DNA of 39,777 bases, taken from Spirochaetae bacterium HGW-Spirochaetae-2. GTDB lineage: Bacteria > Spirochaetota > Spirochaetia > Sphaerochaetales > Sphaerochaetaceae. This document shows, piece by piece, positions 5,446 through 32,997 of this stretch; the first letter of the stretch is position 1; every line of letters begins with the position of its first letter. The position numbers and the translations under genes are program-made. Below the pieces are notes generated by a model, which worked only from the letters and a program-made list of their open reading frames with translations, did not search any database and was not told the origin of the DNA. The stretch spans positions 1-39,777 of the forward strand of contig PGXW01000026.1 of NCBI GenBank assembly GCA_002839355.1. The letters are read 5' to 3'.

Positions 5446-6786
5446 ATGAAATCAATTCCCGAGAACGTATTGAGAACAAGTCTGCGACTTGTATATGCAA
5501 ACCCAGAGAAAAATCTCCCCAAACTTGTGAACTGGGCACAGCCCATTGCAGCAGCAACGGGAAGAATACAAGAGAAACAATGGAAGATGATCAAACGTAT
5601 TACTCAAGACCCCTCATCAGGGGGATACGGCTTGATCATGAGGATCATCCACCAGACAGACTACGAGGTGCTAGAGAAGATAGTCATGAATTTTGTCTTC
5701 AATGCTGCTTGGTTTGGATCTGAACAGTTGGAGAAAAACCGTGTAGAAATGGATATGAATATCCCTTGGGCAATCTTGATGGATCCCACGTCTGCCTGCA
5801 ACCTTTCCTGTACAGGATGCTGGGCCGCCGAATACAAGAAAACTGATGAGCTCTCTTTCCAGACCTTGGATCGCATCATTACCGAAGGAAAGGAACTGGG
5901 AACCTATGCATATCTCTTTTCCGGTGGTGAACCGTTGGTTCGTAAACATGACCTGATAAAGCTTGCAAGCAAACACAACGACGCAATCTTTGCTGCCTTT
6001 ACCAATGCAACATTGATTGACGATGAATTTGCGGAAGACCTACTGAGTGTGAAAAACTTTATCCCACTAATCAGCATCGAGGGAACTGAGGAAATGACCG
6101 ATGCAAGAAGGGGTAGTGGGGTTTGGAAGAAATGTATCCATGCGATGGACCTACTCCGTGAACGGAACTTGCCCTTTGGTTTTTCCACTTGCTACCACGC
6201 ACACAATACCGAGTATGTAGGTTCTGATGAGTTCATAGAGTTCATGGTGGAAAAGGGGGCCCTCTTTGGGTGGTATTTTACCTACATTCCTGTGGGTGAA
6301 GGAGCCTCACTCGGTTTGGTTGCATCCCCTTCACAGCGGGCCTATATGCTCGAGCGAGTTAGGGAGATACGCGCACACAGGCCGCTCTTCGTCCTGGATT
6401 TCTGGAATGATGGTAACCATGTAAATGGATGCATTGCTGGAGGGAGAAGGTATTTGCATATCAATTCTCATGGTGACATGGAACCGTGTGCATTCATCCA
6501 CTATGCCTGTGAAAGCATTCATGGCAAACCTCTCGTGGAAGCTCTTAGGAACCCATTGTTCAAGGCATATCGGGAGCATCAGCCATGCAATTCAAACATG
6601 TTCCGTCCCTGCCCCATGTTTGACAATCCTGAGTTGTTGTTGGATATGGTCAACCAGTCGGGGGCTCAAAGCACCCAACGGATCGACTCAGAATCAGTAG
6701 AACAGCTCTATGCTAAATGCAAGCCGATAGCTGATAGCTGGGAACCGATAGCTGACAGTCTTTGGGAGGCATACCAAGAGAAGTAA
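5446..6786 (+). CDS. Radical SAM enzyme with extra C-terminal cysteine region (copy 1)
   Basis: A 446-residue protein. Residues 118-125 hold the radical SAM CX3CX2C motif (C118, C122, C125, in CNLSCTGC), which binds a 4Fe-4S cluster and S-adenosylmethionine; LFSGGEPL is the usual GGEP strand that contacts SAM. A C-terminal cysteine set (GCIAGG, EPCAFIHY, QPCNSN, FRPCP) resembles a SPASM/twitch region for additional Fe-S clusters. The first 110 residues form a helical domain shared with the paralogue at 9611-10966. The two copies look about 55-60% identical over the core by eye. The substrate is unknown. The context (acyl-CoA ligase, lipase-like hydrolase) suggests work on lipid or acyl chains, but this is inference. 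The start ATG has a weak AGGA upstream. Confidence 0.85.
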   Translation: MKSIPENVLRTSLRLVYANPEKNLPKLVNWAQPIAAATGRIQEKQWKMIKRITQDPSSGGYGLIMRIIHQTDYEVLEKIVMNFVFNAAWFGSEQLEKNRVEMDMNIPWAILMDPTSACNLSCTGCWAAEYKKTDELSFQTLDRIITEGKELGTYAYLFSGGEPLVRKHDLIKLASKHNDAIFAAFTNATLIDDEFAEDLLSVKNFIPLISIEGTEEMTDARRGSGVWKKCIHAMDLLRERNLPFGFSTCYHAHNTEYVGSDEFIEFMVEKGALFGWYFTYIPVGEGASLGLVASPSQRAYMLERVREIRAHRPLFVLDFWNDGNHVNGCIAGGRRYLHINSHGDMEPCAFIHYACESIHGKPLVEALRNPLFKAYREHQPCNSNMFRPCPMFDNPELLLDMVNQSGAQSTQRIDSESVEQLYAKCKPIADSWEPIADSLWEAYQEK

Positions 6787-8122: not shown

Positions 8123-8560
8123 GTCGAATCCTCCTATTCCTGTTTACAACTCATAAAAAATCATTTCTTCGAAACGGTTCTTGGTAATCTTAACACCATG
8201 CCCCATGATTTTTTCAGTTTTACTTCTCATAAGAAGTCATGGGAAATATAACAAGAAAATTCCAAACCAAGCTTTCGTGAAAGCATTCGGCAATGAATTG
8301 TTGACTGTTCCTCATAGATATATTATTTTTGACAGTAGTGTCAATAATAGTCGATGATGAGAGACTGTATCGGAAAAGGGTAAAGAAACCTTTCGATGGC
8401 TGCCTCTCCCCTAGATAATCCAATGTTCTGGCAAATGGCGTAAACATCTAGGGGCTTGTGGATAATACGGCACTTATCCCGTTAGTTATAACTTTGGATG
8501 GAAGGAAATGGAATGTGAGAACATGTTTGGAATTGGGATTTATGGGAGGGGGCCCAAAAT
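8123..8560. other. Divergent intergenic region with several small inverted repeats
   Basis: No gene is supported here. Visible elements are a 6-bp inverted repeat around CATA at 8222-8237 (ACTTCT/AGAAGT), the promoter and operator at 8317-8344 described separately, and GGATAA/TTATCC arms at 8460-8465 and 8474-8479. The last lies about 80 bases before the small ORF and could mark its promoter region. Confidence 0.4.
8317..8344 (-). promoter_or_regulatory. Sigma70-like promoter for the DUF2974 gene with TetR-type operator
   Basis: Read on the minus strand, TTGACA (8344-8339), a 16-base spacer and TATATC (8322-8317) form a good promoter directed at the hydrolase gene about 200 bases away. The palindrome TGACA-GTAG-TGTCA (8330-8343) overlaps the -35 box. 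It has the same half-sites and spacing as the palindrome at the tetR promoter (8862-8875). Repression by the adjacent TetR protein is the natural reading. Confidence 0.55.
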
Positions 8561-8832: not shown

Positions 8833-8875
8833 TTGACAATGGGCAATTGTCGAATTATTATTGACACATGTGTCA
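8833..8875 (+). promoter_or_regulatory. tetR promoter with two inverted-repeat operators
   Basis: TTGACA (8833-8838), a 17-base spacer and TATTAT (8856-8861) make a near-consensus sigma70 promoter for the downstream tetR gene. GACAAT-GGGCA-ATTGTC (8835-8851) overlaps the -35 box and spacer. The perfect palindrome TGACACATGTGTCA (8862-8875) begins immediately after the -10 box, where a bound dimer would block initiation. The layout indicates autoregulation by the TetR protein encoded 70 bases downstream. Confidence 0.65.
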
Positions 8876-8946
8876 GAATAAATCCCAAAGCAATGGGTCG
8901 CCCATGATTCAATTGAAAATTGAAAGGGGAAAGAGGGGGATATCAG

Positions 8947-9610: not shown

Positions 9611-10966
9611 ATGAATCAGATTACCCATGGGATCAGCAACAACGCACTCAAACTTGCCCTGCAATATATGGAAAGCAATCCTGAAGAGAATATACCGAAA
9701 GTTATCGACCTCCTGTTGACTTTCATAAAGACTGAAGATGGCCGAAAAAAGCTCATTGCAGCAAAACGCGTCATGCAAGAACCCGGCAATCCCTATCGCA
9801 ATCTCATCATCAGGGGATTCAATGAACTTGAACCGATGGTCCGCAAACGTTTCGTCTCGAACTTCGTGTTGAATGCATCGATGTTCGGACCTGCCCATGC
9901 GAAGAAGTTTGCGGAAAAATATGATTGCAATATCCCTTGGGCAATTCTTATGGATCCTACGAGTGCCTGCAACCTCAAATGCATGGGGTGTTGGGCAGCA
10001 GAATATGACAAAACCGATACGATGGAATTTGCCCTGTTGGACAGGATTATCAGAGAAGGTAAAGAGATGGGGATTTATTTCTACCTTTATTCAGGAGGTG
10101 AGCCGACATTACGGAAGGCGGATATTCTCAAACTCGCCACGATACATGATGATTGCATGTTCCTTGCGTTCACCAACGGAACCCTGGTTGATAGGGAGTT
10201 TTCACAAGCATTGGCTGATGTGGGCAATTTCATGCTTGCTTTCAGTATTGAAGGTTTCGAAGAATCGACTGACTACCGGCGTGGAACCGGTACATATCAA
10301 AAGGTTCTCGAGGGGATGCAGCACATGCGGAAGGCGGGTGCTCCCTTCGGGTTCAGCGCTTGCTATCACGCAAAGAATACAGAATCTGTTGGTGATGAAA
10401 AGTTCCTTGACTTCCTTATCGGACAAGGATGTATGTTTGGATGGTATTTTACCTATATCCCTCTTGGCAAGGAGGCGGATCCTGACTTGATCGCCAGAGC
10501 GGACCAGCGATTCTATATGGCGCATTGGGTACGTGAGATGCGTTCAAGGAAACCGGTATTCCTTATGGATTTCTGGAATGATGGACAATATGTGGAAGGG
10601 TGTATCGCGGGAGGTAAAAACTATCTCCACATCAATGCGGCAGGTGATGTCGAACCCTGTGCATTCATCCATTATTCGAATGCGAATATAAGGACAGTCT
10701 CGCTATTGGATGCGTTGCGTTCACCCTTGTTCATGGAATTTAGGGAGAACCAACCATTCAATGAAAACCATTTCCGTCCTTGCCCGCTCATGGACAACAC
10801 AGGAGCTCTCGCTGAAATGGTGAAAGCCTCGGGTGCACGATCGACACAGCCGCTCGACATAGAGGATGTGGATGATCTCACAGCCAAATGTGCCCGAGCT
10901 GCAACCGAATGGATCCCATCGGCTAACCAGCTCTGGGAAGACGAATTTCCCCGACATGCTAGGTGA
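9611..10966 (+). CDS. Radical SAM enzyme with extra C-terminal cysteine region (copy 2)
   Basis: A 451-residue paralogue of the enzyme at 5446-6786, with the same plan: a helical N-terminal domain (residues 1-110), the CX3CX2C motif (C120, C124, C127 in CNLKCMGC) after MDPTSA, GGEP in LYSGGEPT, and C-terminal cysteines in GCIAGG, EPCAFIHY and FRPCP. The segment FGWYFTYIP and the WNDG loop are identical in both copies, so the active sites are probably alike. The QPC cysteine of copy 1 is not conserved here (QPFNEN), which hints at a difference in the auxiliary cluster ligands or simply a non-ligand. The ATG has AAGGAAA upstream and the gene follows tetR closely. Function is unknown. Confidence 0.85.
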   Translation: MNQITHGISNNALKLALQYMESNPEENIPKVIDLLLTFIKTEDGRKKLIAAKRVMQEPGNPYRNLIIRGFNELEPMVRKRFVSNFVLNASMFGPAHAKKFAEKYDCNIPWAILMDPTSACNLKCMGCWAAEYDKTDTMEFALLDRIIREGKEMGIYFYLYSGGEPTLRKADILKLATIHDDCMFLAFTNGTLVDREFSQALADVGNFMLAFSIEGFEESTDYRRGTGTYQKVLEGMQHMRKAGAPFGFSACYHAKNTESVGDEKFLDFLIGQGCMFGWYFTYIPLGKEADPDLIARADQRFYMAHWVREMRSRKPVFLMDFWNDGQYVEGCIAGGKNYLHINAAGDVEPCAFIHYSNANIRTVSLLDALRSPLFMEFRENQPFNENHFRPCPLMDNTGALAEMVKASGARSTQPLDIEDVDDLTAKCARAATEWIPSANQLWEDEFPRHAR

Positions 10967-12316: not shown

Positions 12317-12528
12317 TTAATTCATATTTCCTGGATTTGTGGTATCAATACGAGAACCTGTGACATTCTGGACAATCAGTTGGGCTGGATCCTGATTTTG
12401 AGGATTTTTCCTTTTGTGGTTGAAATAATTATAAGGCAATACGCTTCATTGACTTTCCCCTCTTCATCGCACACCATATGCAAGGGGTATGGTCAATATT
12501 AACTAGAGAATCGGGAGGTAAAAACAAA

Positions 12529-14280
12529 ATGGCACGAGCATGGGATGTTTTGGAATCCTACCGGGGAACACTGTTCGAGGGAGACTGGCCTTCTATTCCC
12601 CATTTATTCCTCATCACGATGGAGAAACACGCCGGGAGTAAAGCCTTCACCATCATCAAAGGAAGTGAAAAGGTATCGCTCACTTACCAACAAGTCCACC
12701 AGCGTATCCTCGATGTGGCGACCTACCTCTTGTCGAAGGGCATCGGCAAAAACGATCGTATCATCCTCAACGGCAAAAACTCTCCGGAGTGGGCGATCGC
12801 CTACCTGGGCATTCTCTTCTGTAAAGCTACGGTCGTTCCGCTCGACAACCAGATGGCGACTGAACGGGTAGAGGCTCTCAGCGCGTTTAGCGAGGCAAAG
12901 GGCTTCTTCGGTGACCGTGATGTGATCGAGAGACTAGCGGGCGGAGCCTGGCCCGACTCGCAAGCCTTCTTCATCTACCTTGATGCCGAGGGCGATGAAC
13001 AAGGTACCGGATTCGCGCAGATTCCCACTGGAGACACTTCGATCGAAGCCTCGGAGCTTCCCAGCGGTGAGGATATCGCCGCAATACTTTACACCAGCGG
13101 AACAACTGGCCATGAAAAGGGGGTCATACTCACACACGCGAACTTCACCAGCGATGTCTATCAGGCGGGAGACCCCGAGTTCCTCGCGATTTCCAGCGAA
13201 GACATCTTCTACGCATTACTCCCGTTGCACCACTCCTATACGATGACTGCCGTATTCCTCGAATCCCTAATGCACGGGTGCGAGCTCCTATTTGGCCAAG
13301 GGATCGTCGTATCCCGGGTGCTCAATGAGATGAGGGTGGGAAATGTGACGCTCTTCCTGGCGATCCCCCTCCTCTACAACAAGCTACTTGCCGGTTTGAT
13401 GAAGAAGGTGCGAGAGAAGGGAATCTTCACCTATGTGCTCATCAGGAGCCTCATGTGGATAAATGGTAGGTTACGCAAGAGCCTTCACATCAACCTCGGC
13501 CGAAGGTGGTTCCACCAGTTGCTCGACGGGATCGGGATGATCGACAACAAGCTGTGTATTTGCGGGGGAGGGCCGCTTTCGCCGTCCACCTTCAGGCAGT
13601 ATCAGCAACTGGGTCTCGATTTCATCCAAGGCTACGGCCTGACCGAGACTGCACCGATCCTCACGCTCAATCCAGTGAGCAGGTTCAAGGTGACCTCGGT
13701 TGGCAAAGTATTTCCCCTGGTTGACATGCGGATCGCCAATGCAGACCTACTCGGCGTAGGAGAAGTCCAGGTCAAGGGGCCAAACATCTGCAAAGGCTAC
13801 TACAAGGATCTGGCGAACACCGCACAACTGTTCACTGAGGACGGGTATCTACGCACCGGCGATCTCGGGGCGCTCGACAGGGAAGGATACCTCTACCTGA
13901 AGGGACGCGTGAAAAACCTCATCGTCACCGAGGGGGGAAAGAATGTCTATCCGGAGGAGATCGAGGACCTCTTCCAGACCCATCCGCAGGTCGAGCAGGT
14001 GCTGGTACGCGCCTACATCGCGAACAAGTCGGCTCGCGCAGAAGGAATCGAAGCAGTCATATTCCCCGACGTAGAGCACTACAAGCAGCTCGGTTACAAT
14101 GCACAACTGATCTCCCAAGATATCGACAAGGTGGTCTCCGAGGTGAACAAGAAGCTGATGCCTTACAAGAAGGTCACGCGAACAACGATCATCGACAAGC
14201 CGATGGCGATGACGAGCACGAAGAAGATCCAACGGGGTAAGGTATCCCGAACATTCGAGCGGTTGCGCGGAAATAGTTGA
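12529..14280 (+). CDS. AMP-forming long-chain acyl-CoA synthetase
   Basis: A 583-residue member of the ANL superfamily. The order of motifs is complete: YTSGTTGHEKGV at about residue 188 (ATP phosphate loop), GYGLTE at about 369, TGDLG at about 444 (ribose-binding Asp), KGRVKNLIVTEGGKNVYPEEIE at about 460-480 (hinge), and a C-terminal lysine in STKKIQRGKV for adenylation. It would activate a fatty acid to acyl-CoA. The start at 12529 has GGGAGG 11 bases upstream; the open frame before it (from 12478) has no ribosome site. Codon use is clearly GC-richer than in the radical SAM genes, so it may have a different origin. It lies 212 bases after the CmpB-HD gene. The exact chain length is not predictable. 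Confidence 0.88.
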   Translation: MARAWDVLESYRGTLFEGDWPSIPHLFLITMEKHAGSKAFTIIKGSEKVSLTYQQVHQRILDVATYLLSKGIGKNDRIILNGKNSPEWAIAYLGILFCKATVVPLDNQMATERVEALSAFSEAKGFFGDRDVIERLAGGAWPDSQAFFIYLDAEGDEQGTGFAQIPTGDTSIEASELPSGEDIAAILYTSGTTGHEKGVILTHANFTSDVYQAGDPEFLAISSEDIFYALLPLHHSYTMTAVFLESLMHGCELLFGQGIVVSRVLNEMRVGNVTLFLAIPLLYNKLLAGLMKKVREKGIFTYVLIRSLMWINGRLRKSLHINLGRRWFHQLLDGIGMIDNKLCICGGGPLSPSTFRQYQQLGLDFIQGYGLTETAPILTLNPVSRFKVTSVGKVFPLVDMRIANADLLGVGEVQVKGPNICKGYYKDLANTAQLFTEDGYLRTGDLGALDREGYLYLKGRVKNLIVTEGGKNVYPEEIEDLFQTHPQVEQVLVRAYIANKSARAEGIEAVIFPDVEHYKQLGYNAQLISQDIDKVVSEVNKKLMPYKKVTRTTIIDKPMAMTSTKKIQRGKVSRTFERLRGNS

Positions 14281-14683
14281 GATCGGCCCGCCTTGCCGAC
14301 ACCCCCCTTCGATGTTTACGGCGAAGCGTCTTGGGACTTTTCTGGAAGATCTTTCCCATCATCATGCTGAACTTGTGCTTAAATATTTGCAATCATAAAA
14401 CTAGGGTTGTATCGATCGTTTCTCTATAACATATAACTAGTTATTGTCTTTCTAGCTAAGCATAGATAGATTCAGGTCGGGCTAAATATAATGATACAAT
14501 AAAGAGAATTGTAACTTTTCAAGACTTCACCAAGTTTTCAAAAAAGCACTGAGATGGGCCACAGGGATTTTTTCGAAGCTCTGCGACACCCGGGCATCGG
14601 GACGAATTCCGGATCGGATTGTCCAAGGAACTCCTTTGCTAGTGATATATTCCCAGGAGTCTTTGACGCACCCCGAAACTAAC
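14281..14683. other. Intergenic region holding the left copy of a direct repeat
   Basis: No gene is recognised between the convergent acyl-CoA synthetase and diguanylate cyclase genes. Composition drops to AT-rich in 14380-14520, unlike both neighbours. The left copy of an imperfect direct repeat lies within it and is listed separately. A weak TCGGC/GCCGA pair at 14283-14299 just after the synthetase stop might contribute to termination, but there is no T-run. Confidence 0.4.
14383..14465 (+). repeat. Imperfect direct repeat, left copy
   Basis: The last 25 bases (14441-14465: TTATTGTCTTTCTAGCTAAG then CATAG) match 17311-17335 at 23 of 25 positions. The 60 bases before them align in the same register with lower identity, for example TCTCT and ATCG in both. 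The two copies have the same orientation and bracket a 2.85-kb segment with the diguanylate cyclase and a serine recombinase. They could be attachment-site arms, or ends of two related elements. Confidence 0.5.
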
Positions 14684-15940
14684 TCAATCCTGCCGTTTGT
14701 CCTTATACATCTCACCGTCCGCCAGCTTCAGCAATTGCGCGAAGGACAGGTCATTCTCCGGGCCATATTCGACCACCCCGCAAGCCAAGGACACGGCGAA
14801 GGGATAATCGCAACTTTTCAGGTTTTCTCGCAATCTTGTGATCATCAGTTGGGCCGCATGGATGGAGGCATTCACTGCAACTACCACGAATTCATCACCG
14901 CCTATCCGTCCGATGATGTCAGAATCCCTGAAAGTTTCTCGCATGGCCTGGGCGACAGACACAAGAACCGAATCCCCCAGATCATGGCCATAGGTGTCGT
15001 TTATCCGTTTCATGCCATTCAAGTCCATGAACATGACGGTCATCACCCCACCCGTTCGCTTGGCATGTCGCAATTCCTGCTCCGCGGCCAGGGTGACTCC
15101 TCTCCGGTTGAACAGTTTTGTCAGCGGATCAGTCACCGACAGCATCCGCAGCTGATCTTCCGTCGCTCTCCGGTCGGTTATGTCCCTGGCGAGTATCATC
15201 AGCAACGGCTTCTCGCCATTGATCGTACCCAACAACTTCGCAGAAACCTCACCGAGAAACGTAGAGTCGTCGGAACGTACCAGGGTCACCTCGGAATACA
15301 ATTGTTCTCCTTTCTGGATGGCATCGACGAGCAACTCTTCCATCGCCTTTTGTTCGGAAGTTTCCACGAACGAACCGATCCACTGTCCCAAGACCGCTTC
15401 CTTTAGATCGTAGTTGAACAGCTTCAGGGCTTCCTTGTTGAAATCAAGTATCGCACCCTCCAGGCTGGACAACACGATGGCATCAGGGGACAACTCGACA
15501 ACCGACTGGTACAAGGTCTCTGTTTCCCGCAGCTGGATCTCTGTCTTCCGGATCTCCGTGATATCCCGCACGACTCCCCGGGAAAAACCAGGATGTCCAG
15601 GTATTCCCGGTCTGATTTCTATCATGCCGGTAGAACCATCTTTGCGTAGAACCCGGACACTTATCAATGAAGATGGCACACTCGAATGCTGATAAGCCTG
15701 ATACCTTTGCCTCATGACCTCCTTGTATGAAGGTTCGATGAATTCCATGAAGGATCGCCCGATGATGTCATCGGGCTTCTCATGCCCTATGATTCTTGCC
15801 AATGCCGTGTTCACATACGTAAAAATTCCATCAGGATCGGTAACGTATAGCCCATCATTCAGGCTGTCTGCAAAAGAGGAAAAATCCAAGTATTGTCTTG
15901 CGACTGCATCTTTATCTGAATTGGCAGGAGAATCGTTCAT
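14684..15940 (-). CDS. PAS-PAS-GGDEF diguanylate cyclase
   Basis: A 418-residue protein with two PAS domains (about residues 15-130 and 140-255; YVTDPDGIFTYVN and VLSSLEGAILDFN), each followed by the usual PAC-type RDIT segment (VVRDITEIRK, LARDITDRRA), then a GGDEF domain (SVTDPLTKLFNRRG, DLNGMKRINDTYGHDLGD, GGDEF). The signature is intact, so it should make cyclic di-GMP from two GTP. The inhibitory I-site RXXD (RDSD) is present 5 residues before GGDEF, allowing product feedback. No transmembrane segment is visible, so sensing is cytoplasmic. The ATG at 15940 is preferred over 15946 because GGAG is then 8 bases away. It is divergent from the recombinase gene and may be cargo of the element. 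Confidence 0.92.
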   Translation of the reverse strand: MNDSPANSDKDAVARQYLDFSSFADSLNDGLYVTDPDGIFTYVNTALARIIGHEKPDDIIGRSFMEFIEPSYKEVMRQRYQAYQHSSVPSSLISVRVLRKDGSTGMIEIRPGIPGHPGFSRGVVRDITEIRKTEIQLRETETLYQSVVELSPDAIVLSSLEGAILDFNKEALKLFNYDLKEAVLGQWIGSFVETSEQKAMEELLVDAIQKGEQLYSEVTLVRSDDSTFLGEVSAKLLGTINGEKPLLMILARDITDRRATEDQLRMLSVTDPLTKLFNRRGVTLAAEQELRHAKRTGGVMTVMFMDLNGMKRINDTYGHDLGDSVLVSVAQAMRETFRDSDIIGRIGGDEFVVVAVNASIHAAQLMITRLRENLKSCDYPFAVSLACGVVEYGPENDLSFAQLLKLADGEMYKDKRQD

Positions 15941-16196
15941 CCACATAACTCCATCATATTTTCATCTGGTGATACAAGTCCCTTTCCCTTTGGATTGTTC
16001 ACCCATTTTAAGGTCAAAGCCGTTAGGCTTCAACAGCAAAATGTAAAAGTGGCACAACAACGTGACAGATTGCCCCCCCCTTTCTACATGCCGACCTCGC
16101 TTGATGTTCCCTCATGAGGAATCATGGCATCATTGGTAATCCCGATCATATCCAACCTATCCACCCCCTCCCTCTCCGTGTTATACAGGACCAACC

Positions 16197-17219
16197 ATGT
16201 CCGAGAATGAGAAACGAGTCACCAAGAAACAAACCCTACCCACCAGCACATCGTTCGCCCATGCATTCGGCCACCGACGTGTCGCGTTGTACTGCCGCGT
16301 CAGCTCGAGGATGGAACGGCAGCTGAACAGCCTATCGGCACAGATGGACTTCGAAATGCAGGACATTCTGGACCATCCGAACTGGGAATACGTAGATACT
16401 TATACCGATATCGGCTCGGGCCGCAGTATCCAAACTCGTCCCGGCTTCAAACGCCTCATGGCCGATTGCGAAGCCGGCAAGATCGATCTCATCTACACCA
16501 AATCGATCAGTAGATTCGGTCGCAACTGCGTGGATTTCCTGGTGGTGATCAGGAGATTGAAGGAGCTTGGAGTGGATGTCTACTTTCAACATGAGGATGT
16601 GCTGTTGTCCAGTGAGGCGGGAGAGTTGATAATGACGCTCCATGCGGCCCTCGCTCAGGCGGAGAGCGAGGACAAGAGTGCAAACATCAGATGGGGCATC
16701 AAAAGAAGCACCTCTCATCCCGGCTCCCCGTTCTTCTCCCGTGTGTGCTTTGGGTATGATCATGATGATCAAAAGAACCTCGTCATCAATGAACAACAAG
16801 CCGACATCGTGAGAAGGATCTTCGGATGGTATGTGCAGGGTTGGAGCGTGGTGCGGATCAAGAAGGAACTTGAGACCTCCCGCATCCCCAGCCCCACGGG
16901 AAAGCGCAGATGGCCGGTCAGTACCATAGACGGTATCCTCTCCAACGAGAAGTATGCGGGAAATTCCGTCTTCGGCAGGACGATGGTTGCCGAATATCCT
17001 GAGATGAAGAGAGTCGGCAACAATCCGGAGGAAGTCAAAAGGTCCGAAAATCATCACCCTCCCATCATCGGTAAGGAGATCTTCGACCGTGTCCAGGAGA
17101 TGAAGAAATCGAGAACCAACATCGAGTTCGACGAACACGGAAACAAGGTCCGGAAGAGCACCCATTACAGCATGAAACGGATCGATAACAAGGATGAGAG
17201 TCCCACCGAAAAAGTGTAG
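16197..17219 (+). CDS. Serine recombinase (resolvase plus recombinase domain, short form)
   Basis: A 340-residue protein. The N-terminal resolvase domain has the catalytic serine in YCRVSSR (Ser36) and the conserved YTKSISRFGRN and GELIMTLHAALAQAESED segments. The middle (GYDHDD through NEKYAG) is the recombinase domain. There is no zinc ribbon and no long coiled coil, so it is shorter than classical large serine integrases and than the two recombinases at 31576-34574. The start ATG has CAGGA upstream. Immediately downstream lie an AT-rich direct-repeat copy and then a truncated radC, which suggests it mediated insertion of the segment. The C-terminal part is related to the relic at 2092-2295. 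Confidence 0.88.
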   Translation: MSENEKRVTKKQTLPTSTSFAHAFGHRRVALYCRVSSRMERQLNSLSAQMDFEMQDILDHPNWEYVDTYTDIGSGRSIQTRPGFKRLMADCEAGKIDLIYTKSISRFGRNCVDFLVVIRRLKELGVDVYFQHEDVLLSSEAGELIMTLHAALAQAESEDKSANIRWGIKRSTSHPGSPFFSRVCFGYDHDDQKNLVINEQQADIVRRIFGWYVQGWSVVRIKKELETSRIPSPTGKRRWPVSTIDGILSNEKYAGNSVFGRTMVAEYPEMKRVGNNPEEVKRSENHHPPIIGKEIFDRVQEMKKSRTNIEFDEHGNKVRKSTHYSMKRIDNKDESPTEKV

Positions 17220-17251
17220 CTTAGGCTAATTTATTACTTAACATTTGTTTA

Positions 17252-17335
17252 CTAGCTTGAATCAATTAAACTTGCTGTGTATCGTTAGTATCTCTTTTTC
17301 TGTAAATTACTTATTGTCTTTCCAGCCAAGCATAG
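17252..17335 (+). repeat. Imperfect direct repeat, right copy; probable element end in radC
   Basis: The last 25 bases, 17311-17335, match 14441-14465 at 23 of 25 positions, and the preceding AT-rich stretch aligns in the same register. The copy ends in CATAG; the next base starts a reading frame with clear RadC similarity, and TAG at 17333-17335 is an in-frame stop just before it. The border between element and radC is therefore probably at 17335/17336. Confidence 0.55.
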
Positions 17336-17548
17336 CGGGAGGTCTTCAGCAATCCGCTCAGGGAACGGGCAACCGCGGTCATAGTCGCACACAATCACCC
17401 CAGTGGCATACTTATTCCCAGCAACGACGATATCAATGTCACGCAACGGTTGTTGAAGGCGGGCGAGCTGCTCGGTATCCGGGTGCTCGACCACTTGATC
17501 TTCAGCGACGAGGGATTCCGATCGATGTTGGAGCAGAATGAGTTGTGA
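17336..17548 (+). pseudogene. radC: 3' fragment of radC (JAB/MPN domain)
   Basis: The frame from 17336 encodes REVFSNPLRERATAVIVAHN, then HPSG, and after a further stretch LLKAGELLGIRVLDHLIFSD, ending in TGA at 17546-17548. HNHPSG and the DDINVTQRLLKAGELLGI segment are diagnostic of the C-terminal JAB domain of RadC (HXHXnD metal-site region). Only 70 codons remain: the N-terminal helix-hairpin-helix half and the start codon are missing, and I found no radC 5' part elsewhere in the window. Integrative elements commonly target radC, so the break fits insertion by the adjacent recombinase followed by loss or rearrangement of the left part. Confidence 0.75.
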
Positions 17549-17853: not shown

Positions 17854-18519
17854 ATGATCAGGACCGCCGACAGCGCCTTCGGGGGCGAGAGCTCGGACAA
17901 TTTGCTCAGCGAGGAACTCTCGTTCGTGCACGAGTTCCCCCTCGCCCAGGCGCATGCGAACCTGCTGGGCCAGTTCCACCGGCATGGCAACAGCCAATAC
18001 ACCTTCTACTCTGCCGTCGACCTGATGTGCGGCACCCTCGTGAGGCTCGTCGACGATGCCTTCAGCGGCCTCGACGTCGCCGTCCTGGTGGGTGCGCGCA
18101 CCTTCACCGACGAGAGTGCGGTCTACCACTACCAGGCGGTGGGCATATCGGCCTTCGACCTGGGTGCTCCCGCGTACCTCGAGGTGCTCGGCAAGGGAAA
18201 GAACGACACGGTGGGTCCCGCGGGAGCACCCGGGGAGGACGCGTACCAGCTTCAGGTCATCAGCGAGGGCGGCACCACCTTCCGCACCACCGAAGCCTTC
18301 GCCACCACCATGCGCGCAAGGGTGTTCAAGGGGGGAATCGAGGTCACCGATTCGTTCACCGATGCCGATTTCCGCTGGAGCCGCACCAGCAGCGACGCAC
18401 ATGCGGATGAGATATGGAACAGCGCCCATTACTCCGTCGGAGGCAAGACGCTGTCCATCACCCAGGACGACGTGGCGGGCAGGACCAACTTCTTCTGCAC
18501 GCTGCTCAGGAGGACCTAA
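17854..18519 (+). CDS. Phage tail protein, probably 5'-truncated
   Basis: A 221-residue ORF whose first ATG lacks any ribosome site and is preceded by a stop codon 27 bases upstream, while the protein begins in what looks like the middle of a folded domain (SFVHEFPLAQAHANLLGQFHRHG). This suggests a gene that lost its 5' part. Residues 121-129 are a short collagen-like GPAGAPGED linker, followed by an Ig-like module (FRTTEAFATTMRARVFKGG, then GKTLSITQDDV and FFCTLL) that recurs in the next gene. The family resembles modular tail or tip proteins of siphophages. It is very GC-rich and stops 2 bases before the next ATG, so it belongs to one transcription unit with the following four genes. Confidence 0.55.
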   Translation: MIRTADSAFGGESSDNLLSEELSFVHEFPLAQAHANLLGQFHRHGNSQYTFYSAVDLMCGTLVRLVDDAFSGLDVAVLVGARTFTDESAVYHYQAVGISAFDLGAPAYLEVLGKGKNDTVGPAGAPGEDAYQLQVISEGGTTFRTTEAFATTMRARVFKGGIEVTDSFTDADFRWSRTSSDAHADEIWNSAHYSVGGKTLSITQDDVAGRTNFFCTLLRRT

Positions 18520-18521
18520 CC

Positions 18522-19535
18522 ATGGCAGTATCGGTCGGACAGATCACGATCATGGACTTCAACGATGCGGTGACCCTCACCGGCTACATCTCGGGCAACC
18601 ATACCAAGAATGTGCGCTACGACGGGAACAACGAGACCTACACGCCCGACTTCGTATCCACCCCGCTGGTGCTCACCCCCAGCCTCTTTGTCGCCGGCAG
18701 CGGGACCGACATCATGGCAAGCGGCACCAACGTGCAGTCGGTGGGTTGGAAGCGCAAGGCGAACAACCAGACGGGGGAGAACAACCTCAGCGCGGGGGAG
18801 AGCGTGGGAGCATCGTTTCCCAAGGCGCTCACCGTCGCCTCCCAACCCTTCTCGACCACCGTCTTCAGCGTGGAGTACATCTGCACGATCGTCTACCGCG
18901 ATCCGGCCACCGCCCTGGATCTGACCTACAAGAACTCGGTGACGGTCCAGAAGGTGACCGAGGGGAACAACATCGCCATCGCCGAGGTCTCCGCGGACCC
19001 CGGCTTCGCCTTCAAGAACGCCCTTCCCGCATCCATCACCCTCTCGGCGCACCTGTACCGCGGGGCGACCAAGGACACCACCAACCTCACCTACGTGTGG
19101 GAGAAATTGGTCGCCGGCACGTGGACGGCCATCGGCGGGGCGACCGGCGCGACGCATGTGGTGACCGCCTCGATGGTGGCCAGCCTGCAGCAGTTCCGCG
19201 TGAAGATCGGCGACTCGGTGGTGGGCGACACCTACACCAGCGATCCGGTCTCGGTGCTTGACTTCAACGACCCCGTCCAGGTGGTCATCGAGTCCACCGG
19301 GGGGATGGTGTTCAAGAACGGCGTCGGTACATCCACGCTCAAGGCCAAGCTCTTCCAGAACGGCTCCGAGGTCGATGCGGGGGGAACGGGGTACACCTAC
19401 ACCTGGACGGTGCTCAACAAGGACGGAAGCGCGCGCAACTTCGCCGATGCGACCTCATCGAAGACGGGAAAGACAATCTCGGTCGGGACTTCGGACGTGG
19501 ATGTGAAGTCCACCTTCGTGTGCACCGTCGGCTAG
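18522..19535 (+). CDS. Phage tail protein with repeated Ig-like modules
   Basis: A 337-residue protein. The ATG at 18522 is preferred because AGGAGG lies 8 bases upstream. The N-terminal GQITIMDFNDAVTLTGYI is a typical opening of tail-tip proteins in this type of cluster and recurs in shortened form in the next gene (GQITITHMLDG). At least two Ig-like modules follow, each with VXAXXGXXFKN near the start and an aromatic YXWXX core (LTYVWEKL, YTYTWTVL); the last module, ending GKTISVGTSDVDVKSTFVCTV, matches the module that ends the preceding gene. The role is probably structural, in the tail tip or fibre base. No enzymatic motif is seen. Confidence 0.65.
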   Translation: MAVSVGQITIMDFNDAVTLTGYISGNHTKNVRYDGNNETYTPDFVSTPLVLTPSLFVAGSGTDIMASGTNVQSVGWKRKANNQTGENNLSAGESVGASFPKALTVASQPFSTTVFSVEYICTIVYRDPATALDLTYKNSVTVQKVTEGNNIAIAEVSADPGFAFKNALPASITLSAHLYRGATKDTTNLTYVWEKLVAGTWTAIGGATGATHVVTASMVASLQQFRVKIGDSVVGDTYTSDPVSVLDFNDPVQVVIESTGGMVFKNGVGTSTLKAKLFQNGSEVDAGGTGYTYTWTVLNKDGSARNFADATSSKTGKTISVGTSDVDVKSTFVCTVG

Positions 19536-19545
19536 GGAGGGCTTC

Positions 19546-21666
19546 ATGGCAACAGGCATCGGACAGATCACCATAACGCACATGCTCGACGGATCCTCGG
19601 TCGAGGACCAGTACGCGGCCAACACCTCCCTGACACTCGCCCCCACCAGCGGCTGGACCGCTTCCGCACCCGCCCCGCAGGCGGGGTATTACGTCTGGAA
19701 ACGTTCGCGCGCATCCCACGCCGACGGTACGTTCGGTGCGTGGACCGATGCGGTGCGCATCACCGGGGCGATCGGAGCTCCAGGCATCCCGGGAGAAGCC
19801 GGGCCCGCCGGGCCTCAGGGCCCTTCGGGCAATCCGGGGGCGATCGGGGTGAACATCGAGGGCGCAACCATACGCGTCGCGGGCTTCGATGCCGACGGGC
19901 AGTTTGGTGCCCCGAGTGGCATCGTGTACCTGGGGACCAGCAGGTACCGGCTCGACGACACCAGCTACACCACAACCTCCTCGGGCCAGGGCTACATCCT
20001 CGCCAGCGCATCCGGATCCATCCAATTCGCTCGCCTGGTGGCCCAGACCCAGGGCGGCGCAACCACATCGCGCATGGTGTGGAAGGACTTCAACAGCGGC
20101 ATCGAGATCACCAGCGATGCGGTGGTCGGCAACTTCCGGGTGGAATCGCTTCAGGTGACCAATGCGGAGATTACTCCACCATTGGGTCTCGACCAGTTCA
20201 TCCGCTCGCACTTCATGGAGATTTTGCGCTCATCCGATACGGCCGAAACGCAGCTGCAGGAGATGGCCGTCGCGTTGGGGGCCGACCGGGTCCTCCAGAC
20301 GATCGTCGCCATCGATGCGTTCATCAAGAACCTCTGGGTCTCGCGCCTCGAGTCGGAGATCTATTCGACCGATGCGAACGGGTACCCGGAGGTGGGCTTC
20401 CATCTCGACGGTTTGGCGGGGGTGGCGAAGATCGCGTCCCTGATCGCGAAGAACGCCGATATCGTGGGGTCGTTCGCATCCGACGGATTCAAGACCCTCG
20501 CCCAGGTGGCCGGGACCACGGTGGGCACCTTCACCGCAGCCTCCACCATATTCAGCTTCTCCGAGATGTGCGACCTGGTTCCCACCGGCGACACCCGGTC
20601 GGACATCGCCGGGACGATCGACGGATATGCCTTCACCAGGGCGTCCAAGAGGGCTAACCAGCGCCTCCTGCTGCATGCCAACGGGGCCGCGTCCAGTACC
20701 ATCAGCCCCTCCGGGGGAGACAAGGACGAGACGATCCTGAGCCGCATCACCCCGCTGCGCCTGTTCGGGGACAACCTGCATGTGCAGTGGCATATCGACT
20801 ACGACAACAACTTCGCCGTCCGCAAGCTCTGGAGGACCAAGGCGGGGCAATCCGCCGCCCAGATCAAGGCCGACAGCGAATACCAGCAGAACGTCGGCAC
20901 CGCCGACGAGCCCGTGTACATCAAGCCCGAGGTGACCGCCGGGGAGCTCTGGGGTTCCGGCCCGGGCAAGGGCGACTACGCGGGAAGCTACGGGGTGAAC
21001 GACAGCCGGCCGGATCTGACCCTGTGGGTCTTCAACGGCGGGCTTTGGGGTAGCGGGACCGCGACGGCCAACTACCTGCGCGTGTGGACCAACCAGGTGT
21101 TCGACGGCCTCGTGCTGACCGACGGGGACGCCTCGTTCCATGTGGTGGGCTTCCAGCCGGAGGCCTATTACCTCTCATCTTCCAAGGCCTTTACGATCGG
21201 AGGCACAAACCAGGACTCGGCGTCGATGAAGCGGTACAAGTCGGGCACCGACTTCTACGACCGCTTCTCGTCCGTCCCCGTCGGGACGAATTCCGCGTGC
21301 TCCGGGGCGATCCGGGTCGACGGGATCCCGCATGCGGTGACCCGCCTCCGCAAGGACGCGGACCGCCTGGTGTTCTTCACCGGAACCCAAGAGGTCCATG
21401 TGCGCAAGTTCGTCGACGGTACGGATATCGGCGTCCATACCGATCTGGCGATCACGGACCCCGTCGTCCTGGGGGCGATGGACGGCGGGATCGAATCCAT
21501 GTGGGTCGTCCCGTGGGCGCACGCCACCTACGACATCGGGCAGACGTTGAAGCGGTTCCGCTCGATGTACCTCTCGGGTGAGATGGTGTCGGGCTCGGTG
21601 CAGACCGGGACGGTGGGGGCGACAACCGTCAATGCGACGACGGTGTGGGGGGCGGTGGCAAACTGA
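19546..21666 (+). CDS. Phage tail fibre / host-recognition protein with collagen-like segment
   Basis: A 706-residue protein. The N-terminus repeats the GQITI opening of its neighbour. Residues 74-101 are nine Gly-X-Y triplets (GAIGAPGIPGEAGPAGPQGP and onward), a trimerising collagen-like stalk common in phage fibres. After it come a helical stretch (residues about 215-300), then a long beta-rich region with aromatic and glycine residues and no known enzyme motif, ending in an alanine/threonine-rich tail (GSVQTGTVGATTVNATTVWG). It is the largest gene of the cluster and the likely receptor-binding fibre. AGGGAGGG precedes the ATG by 4 bases. Confidence 0.7.
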   Translation: MATGIGQITITHMLDGSSVEDQYAANTSLTLAPTSGWTASAPAPQAGYYVWKRSRASHADGTFGAWTDAVRITGAIGAPGIPGEAGPAGPQGPSGNPGAIGVNIEGATIRVAGFDADGQFGAPSGIVYLGTSRYRLDDTSYTTTSSGQGYILASASGSIQFARLVAQTQGGATTSRMVWKDFNSGIEITSDAVVGNFRVESLQVTNAEITPPLGLDQFIRSHFMEILRSSDTAETQLQEMAVALGADRVLQTIVAIDAFIKNLWVSRLESEIYSTDANGYPEVGFHLDGLAGVAKIASLIAKNADIVGSFASDGFKTLAQVAGTTVGTFTAASTIFSFSEMCDLVPTGDTRSDIAGTIDGYAFTRASKRANQRLLLHANGAASSTISPSGGDKDETILSRITPLRLFGDNLHVQWHIDYDNNFAVRKLWRTKAGQSAAQIKADSEYQQNVGTADEPVYIKPEVTAGELWGSGPGKGDYAGSYGVNDSRPDLTLWVFNGGLWGSGTATANYLRVWTNQVFDGLVLTDGDASFHVVGFQPEAYYLSSSKAFTIGGTNQDSASMKRYKSGTDFYDRFSSVPVGTNSACSGAIRVDGIPHAVTRLRKDADRLVFFTGTQEVHVRKFVDGTDIGVHTDLAITDPVVLGAMDGGIESMWVVPWAHATYDIGQTLKRFRSMYLSGEMVSGSVQTGTVGATTVNATTVWGAVAN

Positions 21667-29946: not shown

Positions 29947-30260
29947 ATTTATAACATATATTTTATTTTTACCATCAATAGTAGGAGTTGTCAAATATTT
30001 TCTTTAAAAGTTTACACTTATTTTTTTTGTAGAATATTTACATTTTCAAATATCGATTCAGGACTGAATCTTCCACCGACAACATATTTTCCATTTCTCT
30101 CGGTCAAATCCCGTCTCACATCCGGAAGGTATCGAGGCCCCAATAGGCCTTCAAGCGGGAATAGCTACCCATGGACGCCATGAATCCCCTCTCTATTCGG
30201 GATTCGAGGGGCTTTGCGTATCGAGGGTACGGTTATCCGCCAATAGATAGGGAGGAATAC
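29947..30260. other. Divergent intergenic region upstream of the recombinase cassette
   Basis: The left 110 bases are AT-rich (promoter region of the transport operon). The right half, from about 30110, is GC-richer and belongs to the cassette. CCCCTC at 30186-30191 and GAGGGG at 30206-30211 can pair. No gene is recognised in the region. Confidence 0.4.
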
Positions 30261-30683
30261 ATGACCGAAACAGAGAAGAACCAGATCCACCAGATGCGCC
30301 GCCACGGGTGCACCTATCGGCATATCGCGGATGCATTGTCACTGAAGGAAGGGACAGTGAAGACCTACTGCGTGCGCGCAGCCAAGAAAGGCCTCATCAC
30401 CCCAATCGAGCCAAATCGCGATAGCTCCTGCAAGCAGTGCGGCGTGCCGATCGAGCAGATTCCCAAGCGCAAGAGGAAGATCTTCTGCTCCAAGGCCTGC
30501 AGCCGGAAATGGTGGAACACCCACCTGTATCTGGTGGACCGATCCTCAAAGGCCCTGTACCACTTTACCTGTCTCACCTGTGGAAAAACGTTCTCCGCCT
30601 ATGGAAACGACAAGAGAAAGTACTGCAGCCACCAGTGTTATATCAACGCGCGCTACTACCAGGATCCCTCCGATGGGCAATGA
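30261..30683 (+). CDS. Zinc-finger/HTH small protein of the recombinase cassette (copy 1)
   Basis: A 140-residue protein. Residues 1-45 are an HTH of the sigma-70 region 4 kind (QIHQMRRHGCTYRHIADALSLKEGTVKTYCVRAAKKG). Two Cys4 zinc-binding units follow: CKQCG with FCSKACSRKWW, then CLTCGKTF with YCSHQCYINARYY. The ATG at 30261 has GGGAGG 6 bases upstream; the open frame extends 90 bases further up without a ribosome site. Such proteins occur as the first gene of multi-recombinase cassettes in anaerobes, probably as DNA-binding directionality or regulatory factors, though I know of no experimental evidence. It overlaps the next gene by 11 bases. It is clearly paralogous with 30953-31372. Confidence 0.7.
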   Translation: MTETEKNQIHQMRRHGCTYRHIADALSLKEGTVKTYCVRAAKKGLITPIEPNRDSSCKQCGVPIEQIPKRKRKIFCSKACSRKWWNTHLYLVDRSSKALYHFTCLTCGKTFSAYGNDKRKYCSHQCYINARYYQDPSDGQ

Positions 30684-30952: not shown

Positions 30953-31372
30953 ATGACCGAAATCCAGAAACACCAAATCCACGAGATGCGCCGCCTCGGA
31001 TGTACCTATAGGCATATCGCGAGCTCTCTATCACTTCACTCAGGGACGGTGAAGACCTACTGCGTGCGCGCCGTTAAAAAAGGTCTCGTCAACCCACCAG
31101 ATCCTGTCCCAGGCAGCTTGTGCAAACAGTGCGGTAATGCTGTCGAACAGATCCCCAAACGCAAGAAGAAGATCTTCTGCTCGAAGGTCTGTAGTCAGAA
31201 ATGGTGGAACTCCCACCTCTTTATGGTGGACCGATCATCCAAAGCCCTGTATCACTTCACCTGCCCAACCTGCGGGAAAGAGTTCTCCGCCTATGGGAAC
31301 CCCAACAGGAAGTACTGCAGCCACGAGTGCTATATCAACGCACGGTACTACCAGGAGGCTTGTGATGCATAG
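30953..31372 (+). CDS. Zinc-finger/HTH small protein of the recombinase cassette (copy 2)
   Basis: A 139-residue paralogue of the protein at 30261-30683 with the same HTH (QIHEMRRLGCTYRHIASSLSLHSGTVKTYCVRAVKKG) and the same two Cys4 units (CKQCG, FCSKVCSQKWW; CPTCGKEF, YCSHECYINARYY). The two are about 75% identical by eye, mostly differing in the linker after KKG and in single residues. The ATG has TGGAGG 6 bases upstream. The preceding gap (30844-30952) holds an inverted repeat GGGTATA/TATACCC (30888-30915), a candidate operator. It is followed by its own SHOCT gene and then by the recombinases. Confidence 0.7.
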   Translation: MTEIQKHQIHEMRRLGCTYRHIASSLSLHSGTVKTYCVRAVKKGLVNPPDPVPGSLCKQCGNAVEQIPKRKKKIFCSKVCSQKWWNSHLFMVDRSSKALYHFTCPTCGKEFSAYGNPNRKYCSHECYINARYYQEACDA

Positions 31373-31595
31373 TGACATCTTTCCCTCCGAGCTTGATTAC
31401 CAAGCCGCCCTTTCCTTGACCGAAGGTATGCATCGTACGGGGCTTCTGACCGACGATGAGATGTCCAAGGTCAGAGCCTTGCTGGTCGACAAGTATGGTC
31501 CTCCCCTTGGGAGCCTGTTCGCGATCCGTTGCAGGGTCGGAGATGGGGCTCACCAACATGTTCAGGAGGTCGACGATGCACGAAGGGCGATGTGA
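31365..31595 (+). CDS. SHOCT-like small protein (copy 2)
   Basis: A 76-residue protein starting at ATG 31365, 7 bases after AGGAGG, overlapping the zinc-finger stop by 8 bases. FPSELDYQAALSLTEGMHRTGLLTDDEMSKVRALLVDKYGPPLGSLFA aligns with copy 1 (SELDYQ, TGLLT, LLVDKY/LLLDKY, PPXG). The C-terminal 25 residues are not shared. It overlaps the first recombinase start by 20 bases. The tandem arrangement of two zinc-finger plus SHOCT pairs points to duplication of a two-gene unit. Confidence 0.6.
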   Translation: MHSDIFPSELDYQAALSLTEGMHRTGLLTDDEMSKVRALLVDKYGPPLGSLFAIRCRVGDGAHQHVQEVDDARRAM

Positions 31596-32997
31596 CATGC
31601 AAGATATCGATGCAACCGCAAGGCGAGCACCGGTTGATAATAAGGACAAGATCGCATCCCGAAGTTCCAGGGTTATCAAGCTCGAACGACCTGCCGTATC
31701 CAAGCCATCTAGGATTCGGGTTGCCGCCTATGCCCGCGTCTCGGTCGACTCGGATGAGTTGATGCAGTCCCTCGCGGCTCAGGTCAGCCACTACAGCATG
31801 CACATCCAAGCCAACTCCTCATGGGAGTATGCAGGGGTGTATGCGGATGCGGGAATCTCTGGCACTGCGACCAAGAACCGAAGTGAATTCCAACGCCTCA
31901 TTGCCGATTGCGAGAAGGGCATGGTCGATATCGTACTCACCAAATCGATCAGCCGCTTTGCCCGCAACACCGTCGACCTGCTGAAGACCGTGAGGCACCT
32001 GAGGCAGCGCAACATCTCGGTGCGCTTCGAACGGGAGAACCTTGATTCCCTCTCACCTGATGGGGAGCTCATGCTTTCCATCCTTGCCTCGTACGCTCAG
32101 GAGGAGAGCCTTTCGATCAGCGAGAACGTCAAATGGGGTATCCGCAAGCGTTTCTCCCAAGGACGATTCCTCGCCTACAATATCTATGGATATCGGTGGG
32201 CCGAGGACCATTTCGAGATCATCGAGGAGGAAGCCGAGGCGATACGGTTCATGTACCGCTCCTTCGCCGACGGCATGACGCTCACCGAAATATCCGATGC
32301 TTTGGCAAAGCAGGGAATCCTCAACCGAAAGGGACTGCCCTTCGGCAAGTCCTCGATACTGCGGATCCTTGATCAGGAGAAGTACCGAGGATTCAGCATC
32401 CTGCAGCGTACTTACGTAGATGACCATATCACCCATCAGAAGAAGATGAACAAAGGAGAGCTTCCCCGCTTCGAGGTACAGGGAACCCATCCGGTGATCA
32501 TCGACGAACAGTTGCACCATAAGGTAGAAGCCGAACGCGAACGTCGGCGTCAGGCGGGAACGGTGAGGTGGCGGCGAGCCACGTGCTTTACCGGCAAGAT
32601 CGTCTGCGGCTATTGCGGCAACACGTTCACCTACACTCCCAATACATGGACCGGCGAGCTCACACAGTTCCAACAAGGCCACTACCAGTGTTCCCATAAG
32701 CGCAAGAACGGTGCGAAGTCCTGCCCCTCCAAGAGCCTTCCGGTCTATACCCTGCGGCAGGTATGTTGCTCACTTCTTGGTCCGATCATCGGAACCTCTG
32801 ATTGTGACATATTCGAGGAGGCATGGATCGATGGGCAGGTAAAGCACATCGTGGCATTTGCCGATACCCTCGAGTTCCATCTCAAGACCAATGAGGTGCT
32901 CACTATCCCTTGGAAGAACAGCGCCAAGCGTGACGCGTGGGCTCATCGGCGTGCATTGGCACAACAAGAAATCAACAACAGAGAGGCACAATCATGA
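31576..32997 (+). CDS. Serine recombinase A with zinc ribbon
   Basis: A 473-residue protein. The resolvase domain has the catalytic serine in YARVS (Ser56), ADAGISGT, LTKSISRFARN and the QEESLSISENVKWG helix. The recombinase domain (EEEAEAIRFMYRSFADGMTLTEISDALAKQG through EKYRG) and a zinc ribbon (GKIVCGYCGNTF with YQCSHKRKNGAKSCPSK) follow. The start at ATG 31576 has AGGAGG 6 bases upstream; an upstream extension is open but lacks similarity. It overlaps recombinase B by 4 bases (ATGA), so the two are translationally coupled and probably work together. Confidence 0.9.
   Translation: MHEGRCDMQDIDATARRAPVDNKDKIASRSSRVIKLERPAVSKPSRIRVAAYARVSVDSDELMQSLAAQVSHYSMHIQANSSWEYAGVYADAGISGTATKNRSEFQRLIADCEKGMVDIVLTKSISRFARNTVDLLKTVRHLRQRNISVRFERENLDSLSPDGELMLSILASYAQEESLSISENVKWGIRKRFSQGRFLAYNIYGYRWAEDHFEIIEEEAEAIRFMYRSFADGMTLTEISDALAKQGILNRKGLPFGKSSILRILDQEKYRGFSILQRTYVDDHITHQKKMNKGELPRFEVQGTHPVIIDEQLHHKVEAERERRRQAGTVRWRRATCFTGKIVCGYCGNTFTYTPNTWTGELTQFQQGHYQCSHKRKNGAKSCPSKSLPVYTLRQVCCSLLGPIIGTSDCDIFEEAWIDGQVKHIVAFADTLEFHLKTNEVLTIPWKNSAKRDAWAHRRALAQQEINNREAQS

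Follow-up and report, generated by a model that had tools for sequence, protein, structure and literature searches.

The stretch of DNA analysed here (the window, 39,777 nucleotides) is the whole of contig C77 in the 3.6 Mb draft genome of Spirochaetae bacterium HGW-Spirochaetae-2, and it holds a 3' fragment of radC that follows a serine recombinase gene. Positions 14469-17338, which end at this fragment, are very probably one cassette of a tandem array built by that short serine recombinase with radC as its attachment site. We draw this from features of the sequence: the structure of the sites, the GA dinucleotide at which exchange would occur, the tandem arrays, the transfer of cassettes with exact ends and the restoration of target genes in silico.

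The cassette and its attachment sites

The window cassette measures 2,870 bp between its two GA cores, and its sole large frames are a GGDEF gene and the serine recombinase gene. Its left junction is the GA at 14469-14470 (plus strand), placed by alignment with other junctions. This is followed by a left arm, P' (14471-14505, plus strand), holding the motif GCTAAATATAATGATAC at 14481-14497, which also stands after P arms in genomes G002 and G007. Then come the cargo, a PAS-PAS-GGDEF protein of 420 amino acids (aa) (14684-15946, minus strand; Pfam GGDEF E 5.3e-36, plus PAS domains), the 340-aa recombinase (16197-17219, plus strand; Pfam Resolvase E 1.2e-27 and Recombinase E 8.2e-24) and a right arm, P (17277-17338, plus strand), located with a hidden Markov model (HMM) and junction alignment. 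The right junction GA, from the same alignment, is at 17339-17340 (plus strand), and with it begins the radC 3' fragment, or B' half-site (17339-17548, plus strand), which matches Pfam RadC and codes for EVF...NEL and a stop. On the other side, 14408-14468 (plus strand) is the right arm of a neighbouring cassette; 14408-14505 is thus a complete attP-like site composed of the neighbour's P, the GA and the window cassette's P'.

A preliminary description of this DNA had reported a RadC C-terminal frame from 17336, a serine recombinase to its left and an AT-rich repeat at 14383-14465 and again before 17336, and had taken the interval for a mobile element or its remnant. All of this is borne out, and the ends of the element are now defined. 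The frame comprises the last 70 residues, including HNHPSG and LLKAGELLGI, with its stop ending at 17548 (86.8 bits in a genome-wide Pfam RadC search), and the repeat copies are 75% identical over 81 bp, with gaps; a gapless repeat finder did not list them. When the window's copy before 17336 was kept out of the model, an HMM of the repeat scored above 5 bits at two sites only in the window, 14408-14467 (21.0 bits, E 1.2e-5) and 17277-17337 (16.7 bits, E 2.7e-4); locally shuffling the window 50 times gave no score above 10.2 bits. Rather than being the window cassette's own left end, the left repeat is the neighbour's right arm joined to that cassette's P'. We discarded the idea of a common intergenic repeat, as 17220-17541 matched just five places in the whole genome (two in the window, a pair next to the radC 3' fragments of C6 and one within the coding region of another radC).

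The same organization recurs in other genomes. By sequence, the order within a cassette is P', cargo, recombinase (or a 3' remnant of it), P. Neighbouring cassettes meet as P-GA-P', one array end reads P-GA-B' (with B' being radC 3' or ssb 3') and the other reads B-GA-P'; the target gene becomes whole again in silico when B and B' are joined at GA, for radC and for ssb alike, both of them genes of DNA metabolism. The junctions listed, aligned on GA as double-strand sites, fit this one scheme, with the GA lying further right at G001 52304. P-GA-P' joints are found in G138, G116, G139, G117, G001, G002 and G007 as well as in the window, and G138, G116 and G139 have two or more tandem cassettes, arranged head to tail. 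An HMM for the radC-type P arm, built from the sequence preceding 12 radC 3' fragments, also found P arms followed by a P' arm instead of radC, the left repeat of the window being such a site.

G138, a complete genome assembled in two contigs, provides the clean array case: ssb 5'-GA-P' at 2687531, a recombinase, P-GA-P' at 2694151, a second recombinase and P-GA-ssb 3' at 2700488, with 6.6 kb and then 6.3 kb between junctions. Its ssb flanks, once joined, give an SSB that agrees with G139's intact SSB along the 70 residues printed. Since the genomes examined have their housekeeping ssb elsewhere, it is a second ssb gene that serves as target. Recombinases of a sister lineage share 61-65% identity with that of the window, and their distinct P arm ends in GTTGTCATTGA. 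Directly after the GA behind this arm, the sequence switches to ssb 3', radC 3' or P'; this lineage, with the same GA core, is found in the second ssb gene and once in radC. At G138:C2:2700426-2700489 (locus L126) and at other joints of P with ssb, the sister P arm gives TTG TAT CAT GGG CAA in frame, and the arm may supply ssb with a new start codon once joined.

We considered whether the arrays arose mainly by homologous recombination between the repeated radC or ssb ends, with the recombinase as a passenger. The radC ends within a genome are repeated at 90% DNA identity or more, enough for exchange, and G003 has radC-type junctions free of recombinase remnants. However, the P-GA-P' joints have no target-gene sequence in common, GA is the exact point at which junction sequences switch in four kinds of context, and the cassette ends are exact between genera. 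We regard homologous recombination as an improbable main source of the arrays.

The link between recombinase and sites was surveyed on 43 P arms in 38 chosen loci; three of these arms are close to the edge of a locus, G133 and G134 nearly duplicate each other, and 12 of the radC-type sites had seeded the model. For 30 of the 43 arms, the 400 bp upstream contained a same-strand recombinase or its 3' remnant, a figure made up of 21 of the 23 sister-type and nine of the 20 radC-type arms.

The broken radC gene and its spare ends

According to the preliminary description, radC was an integration target whose 5' part had been lost or moved. The first half of this stands; the 5' half is not lost, being present in the same genome on contig C68, cut at the same codon as the window fragment. 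It ends HPREVFA followed by a TAG codon, and when joined in silico to the window 3' half it gives a single open RadC frame of 261 codons. No radC truncated without an insertion was seen in our comparisons. The Pfam RadC search of the same genome found five places: besides the chromosomal 5' half and the window fragment, there are further 3' fragments on C6 at 58.1 and 50.6 kb, and a separate 158-aa radC on C41. A short radC relic near 48.0 kb on C6 is a DNA match.

The radC break and the left-end sequence that follows it are common to four genomes of two genera (G000, G001, G002 and G007), and at the nucleotide level radC 3' fragments start from the same codon in at least eight genomes (G000, G001, G002, G003, G007, G117, G123 and G138). 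Four such fragments stand in a row on one 16-kb contig of G003, both halves are on one contig of G007 about 145 kb apart, and intact radC is still present in G138, G116 and G117.

Two further observations concern radC breaks. In G003 the ends of several contigs (L070 end, L068 start and end, L066 start) meet exactly at the core GAGGTCTT, as expected if a radC 5' half and a P arm are each joined to one and the same radC 3' sequence in the sampled population. In G018 radC is cut at about the same codon (L080:579-139 and L079:136-324), with TGAGCCCGTAAGTC as an inverted repeat at both ends; we assign this break to a different element, which may be an unrelated transposon that struck the same site, and leave it out of the comparison.

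The radC ends repeated within one genome are, by their codon differences, under purifying selection, since they diverge almost only at synonymous sites. The window fragment differs from the C6 fragment at 50.6 kb by 13 synonymous and no non-synonymous changes and from that at 58.1 kb by nine synonymous and three non-synonymous changes, and the two radC 3' copies of G138 differ by 10 synonymous and no non-synonymous changes; two synonymous-divergence (dS) values in the full list are saturated. One G003 copy has a stop codon. Truncated copies would not diverge mostly at synonymous positions, so each radC end must have diverged while attached to a 5' half, as part of a working RadC. Read most simply, a gene end carried by a cassette would take over upon insertion, with the old end being displaced and then decaying. 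The C6 radC relic, which is nearest the shared flank gene, fits such decay, and spare ssb 5' ends are found in G139 and G134. If this is right, the radC ends, each showing selection as a working protein, are a record of successive insertions legible from one genome.

Transfer, cargo and recombinase

The last ssb cassettes of G138 and G001, which belong to different genera by label, are 90.4% identical over 6.34 kb, from P' to P, whereas the only alignments between their housekeeping ssb neighbourhoods span 917 bp at 66.8% and 196 bp at 75%. A radC cassette of G117 matches an ssb cassette of G116 at 91.6% (4.9 kb) and 88.8% (2.0 kb), against 74.5% for housekeeping sequence, and the G117 cassette matches one of G139 at 96.5% over 2.8 kb, against 91.2%. 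G133 and G134 have in common a 4.1-kb cassette, 99.9% identical, preceded by ssb 5' in G134 and by the P arm of another cassette in G133. In G007, too, a cassette next to radC corresponds to the window's PAS-GGDEF cassette, and the two encoded PAS-GGDEF proteins are 82% identical.

The cargo was sampled with 20 proteins picked from 92 frames and the left end of the C68 island, a choice that does not amount to an enrichment test. Pfam matches, many of them to phage-defence or signalling functions, included signalling proteins (an HD-GYP-type HD domain, a response regulator, a hybrid histidine kinase and PAS-GGDEF-EAL), an OLD-like nuclease, AbiTii, Abi_C, AbiEi/AbiEii, PIN and HNH, and also pentapeptide, WYL, RibD_C, cupin, radical SAM and chitobiase-type repeats; one of the 20 had no Pfam match. 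PADLOC agrees: close to the radC break of G000 it reports a type I restriction enzyme along with OLD, AbiTii and AbiE. Neither phage nor conjugation genes were noticed in the cassettes listed (by the starts of their open reading frames only) or among the 20 scanned proteins.

At a threshold of E 1e-90 or better, 13 of the 139 genomes of the family have a match to the recombinase, in genera g1, g3 and g6 of 22, and a phylum sample of 392 genomes gave four carriers, all from the same family. Carriers include Sphaerochaeta halotolerans 4-11, Sphaerochaeta sp. UBA6084, Spirochaetae HGW-Spirochaetae-4 and Spirochaetales SM3-B16.1; close relatives also occur in two genome records named Bacilli and Firmicutes, where binning errors are possible. 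If our interpretation is right, this is a spirochaete gene-capture system that shuttles phage-defence, toxin-antitoxin and cyclic di-GMP signalling genes between genera.

On an alternative reading, which we find unlikely, a serine-integrase prophage or mobilisable element integrated once into radC and then decayed, and the extra radC ends are simple duplications or remnants of unrelated insertions. Such an event would suit the attP × attB logic that insertion in radC and ssb obeys, the many recombinase copies that are remnants and the presence in G007 of both radC halves on one contig. It sits poorly with the tandem cassettes joined by P-GA-P' in G138, G116 and G139, with one and the same cassette at radC in one species and at ssb in another, with the purifying selection on the radC ends of one genome, and with the cargo, given the phage and conjugation genes not noticed there.

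The recombinase has the domain pair of large serine integrases (PF00239 and PF07508), and its catalytic and recombinase domains match SPbeta integrase chains (9dxh). The zinc ribbon PF13408 had no match in its 340 aa, whereas both other recombinases of the window match it, and alignments with PDB integrases stop near profile residue 296 of 336, at chain residue 294 of 545. Judged from these alignments, the enzyme lacks the zinc-ribbon/coiled-coil part of large serine integrases; the AlphaFold model is weak (mean predicted local distance difference test score 58) and adds no support on the missing C-terminal part. Among 80 relatives from viral contigs, with length counted from the catalytic motif, one close relative has 310 residues and the other 79 have 380-613; the close relative is 64% identical, and its junction repeats that of contig C82. 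None of 492 phage and none of 2336 plasmid records reached 60% identity, relatives there all falling below. If we are right, a naturally short serine integrase offers a test of the role of the zinc-ribbon/coiled-coil part in direction and site choice.

We picture the following course for an array. The recombinase would catalyse the exchange, and a cassette would be excised as a circle bearing attP (P-GA-P'). The circle would insert at any GA-centred partner, whether a junction already present or the attB of radC or ssb, and arrays could thus grow with neighbouring cassettes undamaged. As some cassettes carry a spare target-gene end (radC 3' or ssb 5'), insertion could replace the gene rather than destroy it, and older ends would be pushed along the array before they decay. 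In the weakest and most speculative step, the absence of the C-terminal zinc-ribbon/coiled-coil part may let the enzyme tolerate many site pairings. The coiled coil has been described as favouring attP × attB pairing and blocking attL × attR (PMC3783163).

Several points weigh against a recombinase-built array at radC. First, the radC island as a whole may have more than one origin, since the left arm at the chromosomal radC break (TAGGTTTTGATACAAT) differs from the window cassette's P'. Second, simple attP × attB integration does not account for internal radC 3' copies, which need either P-radC' circles or exchange between junctions. Third, 11 of the 20 radC-type P arms lack a recombinase remnant within 400 bp, and a search next to the radC repeats of G003 found none. 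Fourth, the window genome and several others are draft assemblies, and everything here is read from sequence. Fifth, a natural enzyme without a coiled coil may be a poor recombinase: its deletion abolishes the activity of phiC31 integrase but not that of LI integrase, where its role is auxiliary (PMC10754689).

As for the surroundings of the cassette, an AMP-binding (acyl-CoA ligase-like) gene (12478-14280, plus strand; Pfam AMP-binding E 1.5e-65) lies immediately upstream of the neighbour's P arm and is probable cargo of that cassette to the left; no recombinase remnant was found between the gene and the arm. To the right, sequence beyond the radC 3' end gave no tblastx match among the other flanks compared, and 17854-21666 encodes a run of repeat-rich proteins with weak collagen/cuticle-type Pfam matches and short direct repeats between them. 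At 31456-34574 two full-length serine recombinases, both with zinc-ribbon domains, stand side by side after a small sigma-like gene present in duplicate (30171-30683 and 30953-31372; 300 nt, 77% identical). Recombinase pairs of this kind are also seen in G007 (C20), G002 (C23, C10), G138 and G001, and together these are a separate, CcrAB-like two-recombinase system. Further left, a 90-nt stretch is repeated at 77% identity (5758-5847 and 9929-10018) in similarly sized genes (5446-6786 and 9611-10966), and its CNLKCMGCWAAEY-like translation resembles, by eye, a radical-SAM cysteine motif. An imperfect 28-nt inverted repeat (8322-8349 and 8856-8883, 79%) has arms 506 nt apart with a small minus-strand frame between them.

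Comparison with known systems

The staphylococcal cassette chromosome (SCC) has a cassette-borne serine recombinase, a fixed chromosomal site, tandem cassettes with repeats at the joints and defence-type cargo. The spirochaete arrays likewise have tandem cassettes joined at repeated attachment sites, and Ccr is the nearest named recombinase model. They differ in the recombinase (about 340 aa, without the C-terminal half of CcrB), the spirochaete host, the radC and second ssb targets and the spare target-gene ends along the array. That they are true SCC-family elements of spirochaetes is highly improbable. In favour of it are the serine recombinase, tandem cassettes, joint repeats and defence cargo, and the ranking of CcrB as best NCBIfam model (E 6.7e-34), with CcrC and CcrA also among the matches. 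The nearest models (CcrB, XisF, CcrC and CcrA), however, all fall far under cut-off (CcrB 117.4 bits against 900, covering only residues 6-282 of 542), and the targets are radC or a second ssb rather than the 3' end of rlmH (orfX). We rejected SCC membership because the recombinase does not score as CcrA, CcrB or CcrC and there is no rlmH insertion.

With serine-integrase elements of the LI, phiC31 and SPbeta types the arrays share the attP/attB logic with a central dinucleotide, and joining the flanks at that dinucleotide restores the target gene, as found here for radC and ssb. Those are single elements, whereas here there are arrays, and the zinc-ribbon/coiled-coil part is absent here.

TnpA and TnpB of Tn554-family transposons are tyrosine recombinases. 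According to PMC3788773, radC is the preferred target of this family (Tn554, Tn558, Tn6188), which encodes TnpABC and inserts between bp 540 and 541 of the Listeria gene. We rejected this family for the window element, whose only two large frames are the GGDEF and serine recombinase genes.

Integrons hold arrays of small cassettes at a fixed site, rich in toxin-antitoxin and defence genes. Arrays of small cassettes with such cargo at a fixed site are the likeness; the differences are a serine enzyme in place of the IntI tyrosine integrase, cassettes that often bring their own recombinase, and sites that are target-gene or attP-like, not attC. The serine type of the recombinase led us to reject integron membership. 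Tentatively, and with less confidence than we place in the array itself, we suggest that the system might be a serine-recombinase counterpart of the integron, in which a naturally shortened enzyme, free of the zinc-ribbon/coiled-coil part that makes recombination run one way, would accept every GA-centred site (radC, ssb or P-P' joints) as partner and so capture, stack, swap and release cassettes, the target being re-ended by the spare ends. Already known are radC as a target of Tn554-type transposons and serine-recombinase cassettes, in SCC; our searches of the open-licence literature yielded no report of arrays like these, nor any pairing Sphaerochaeta with radC.

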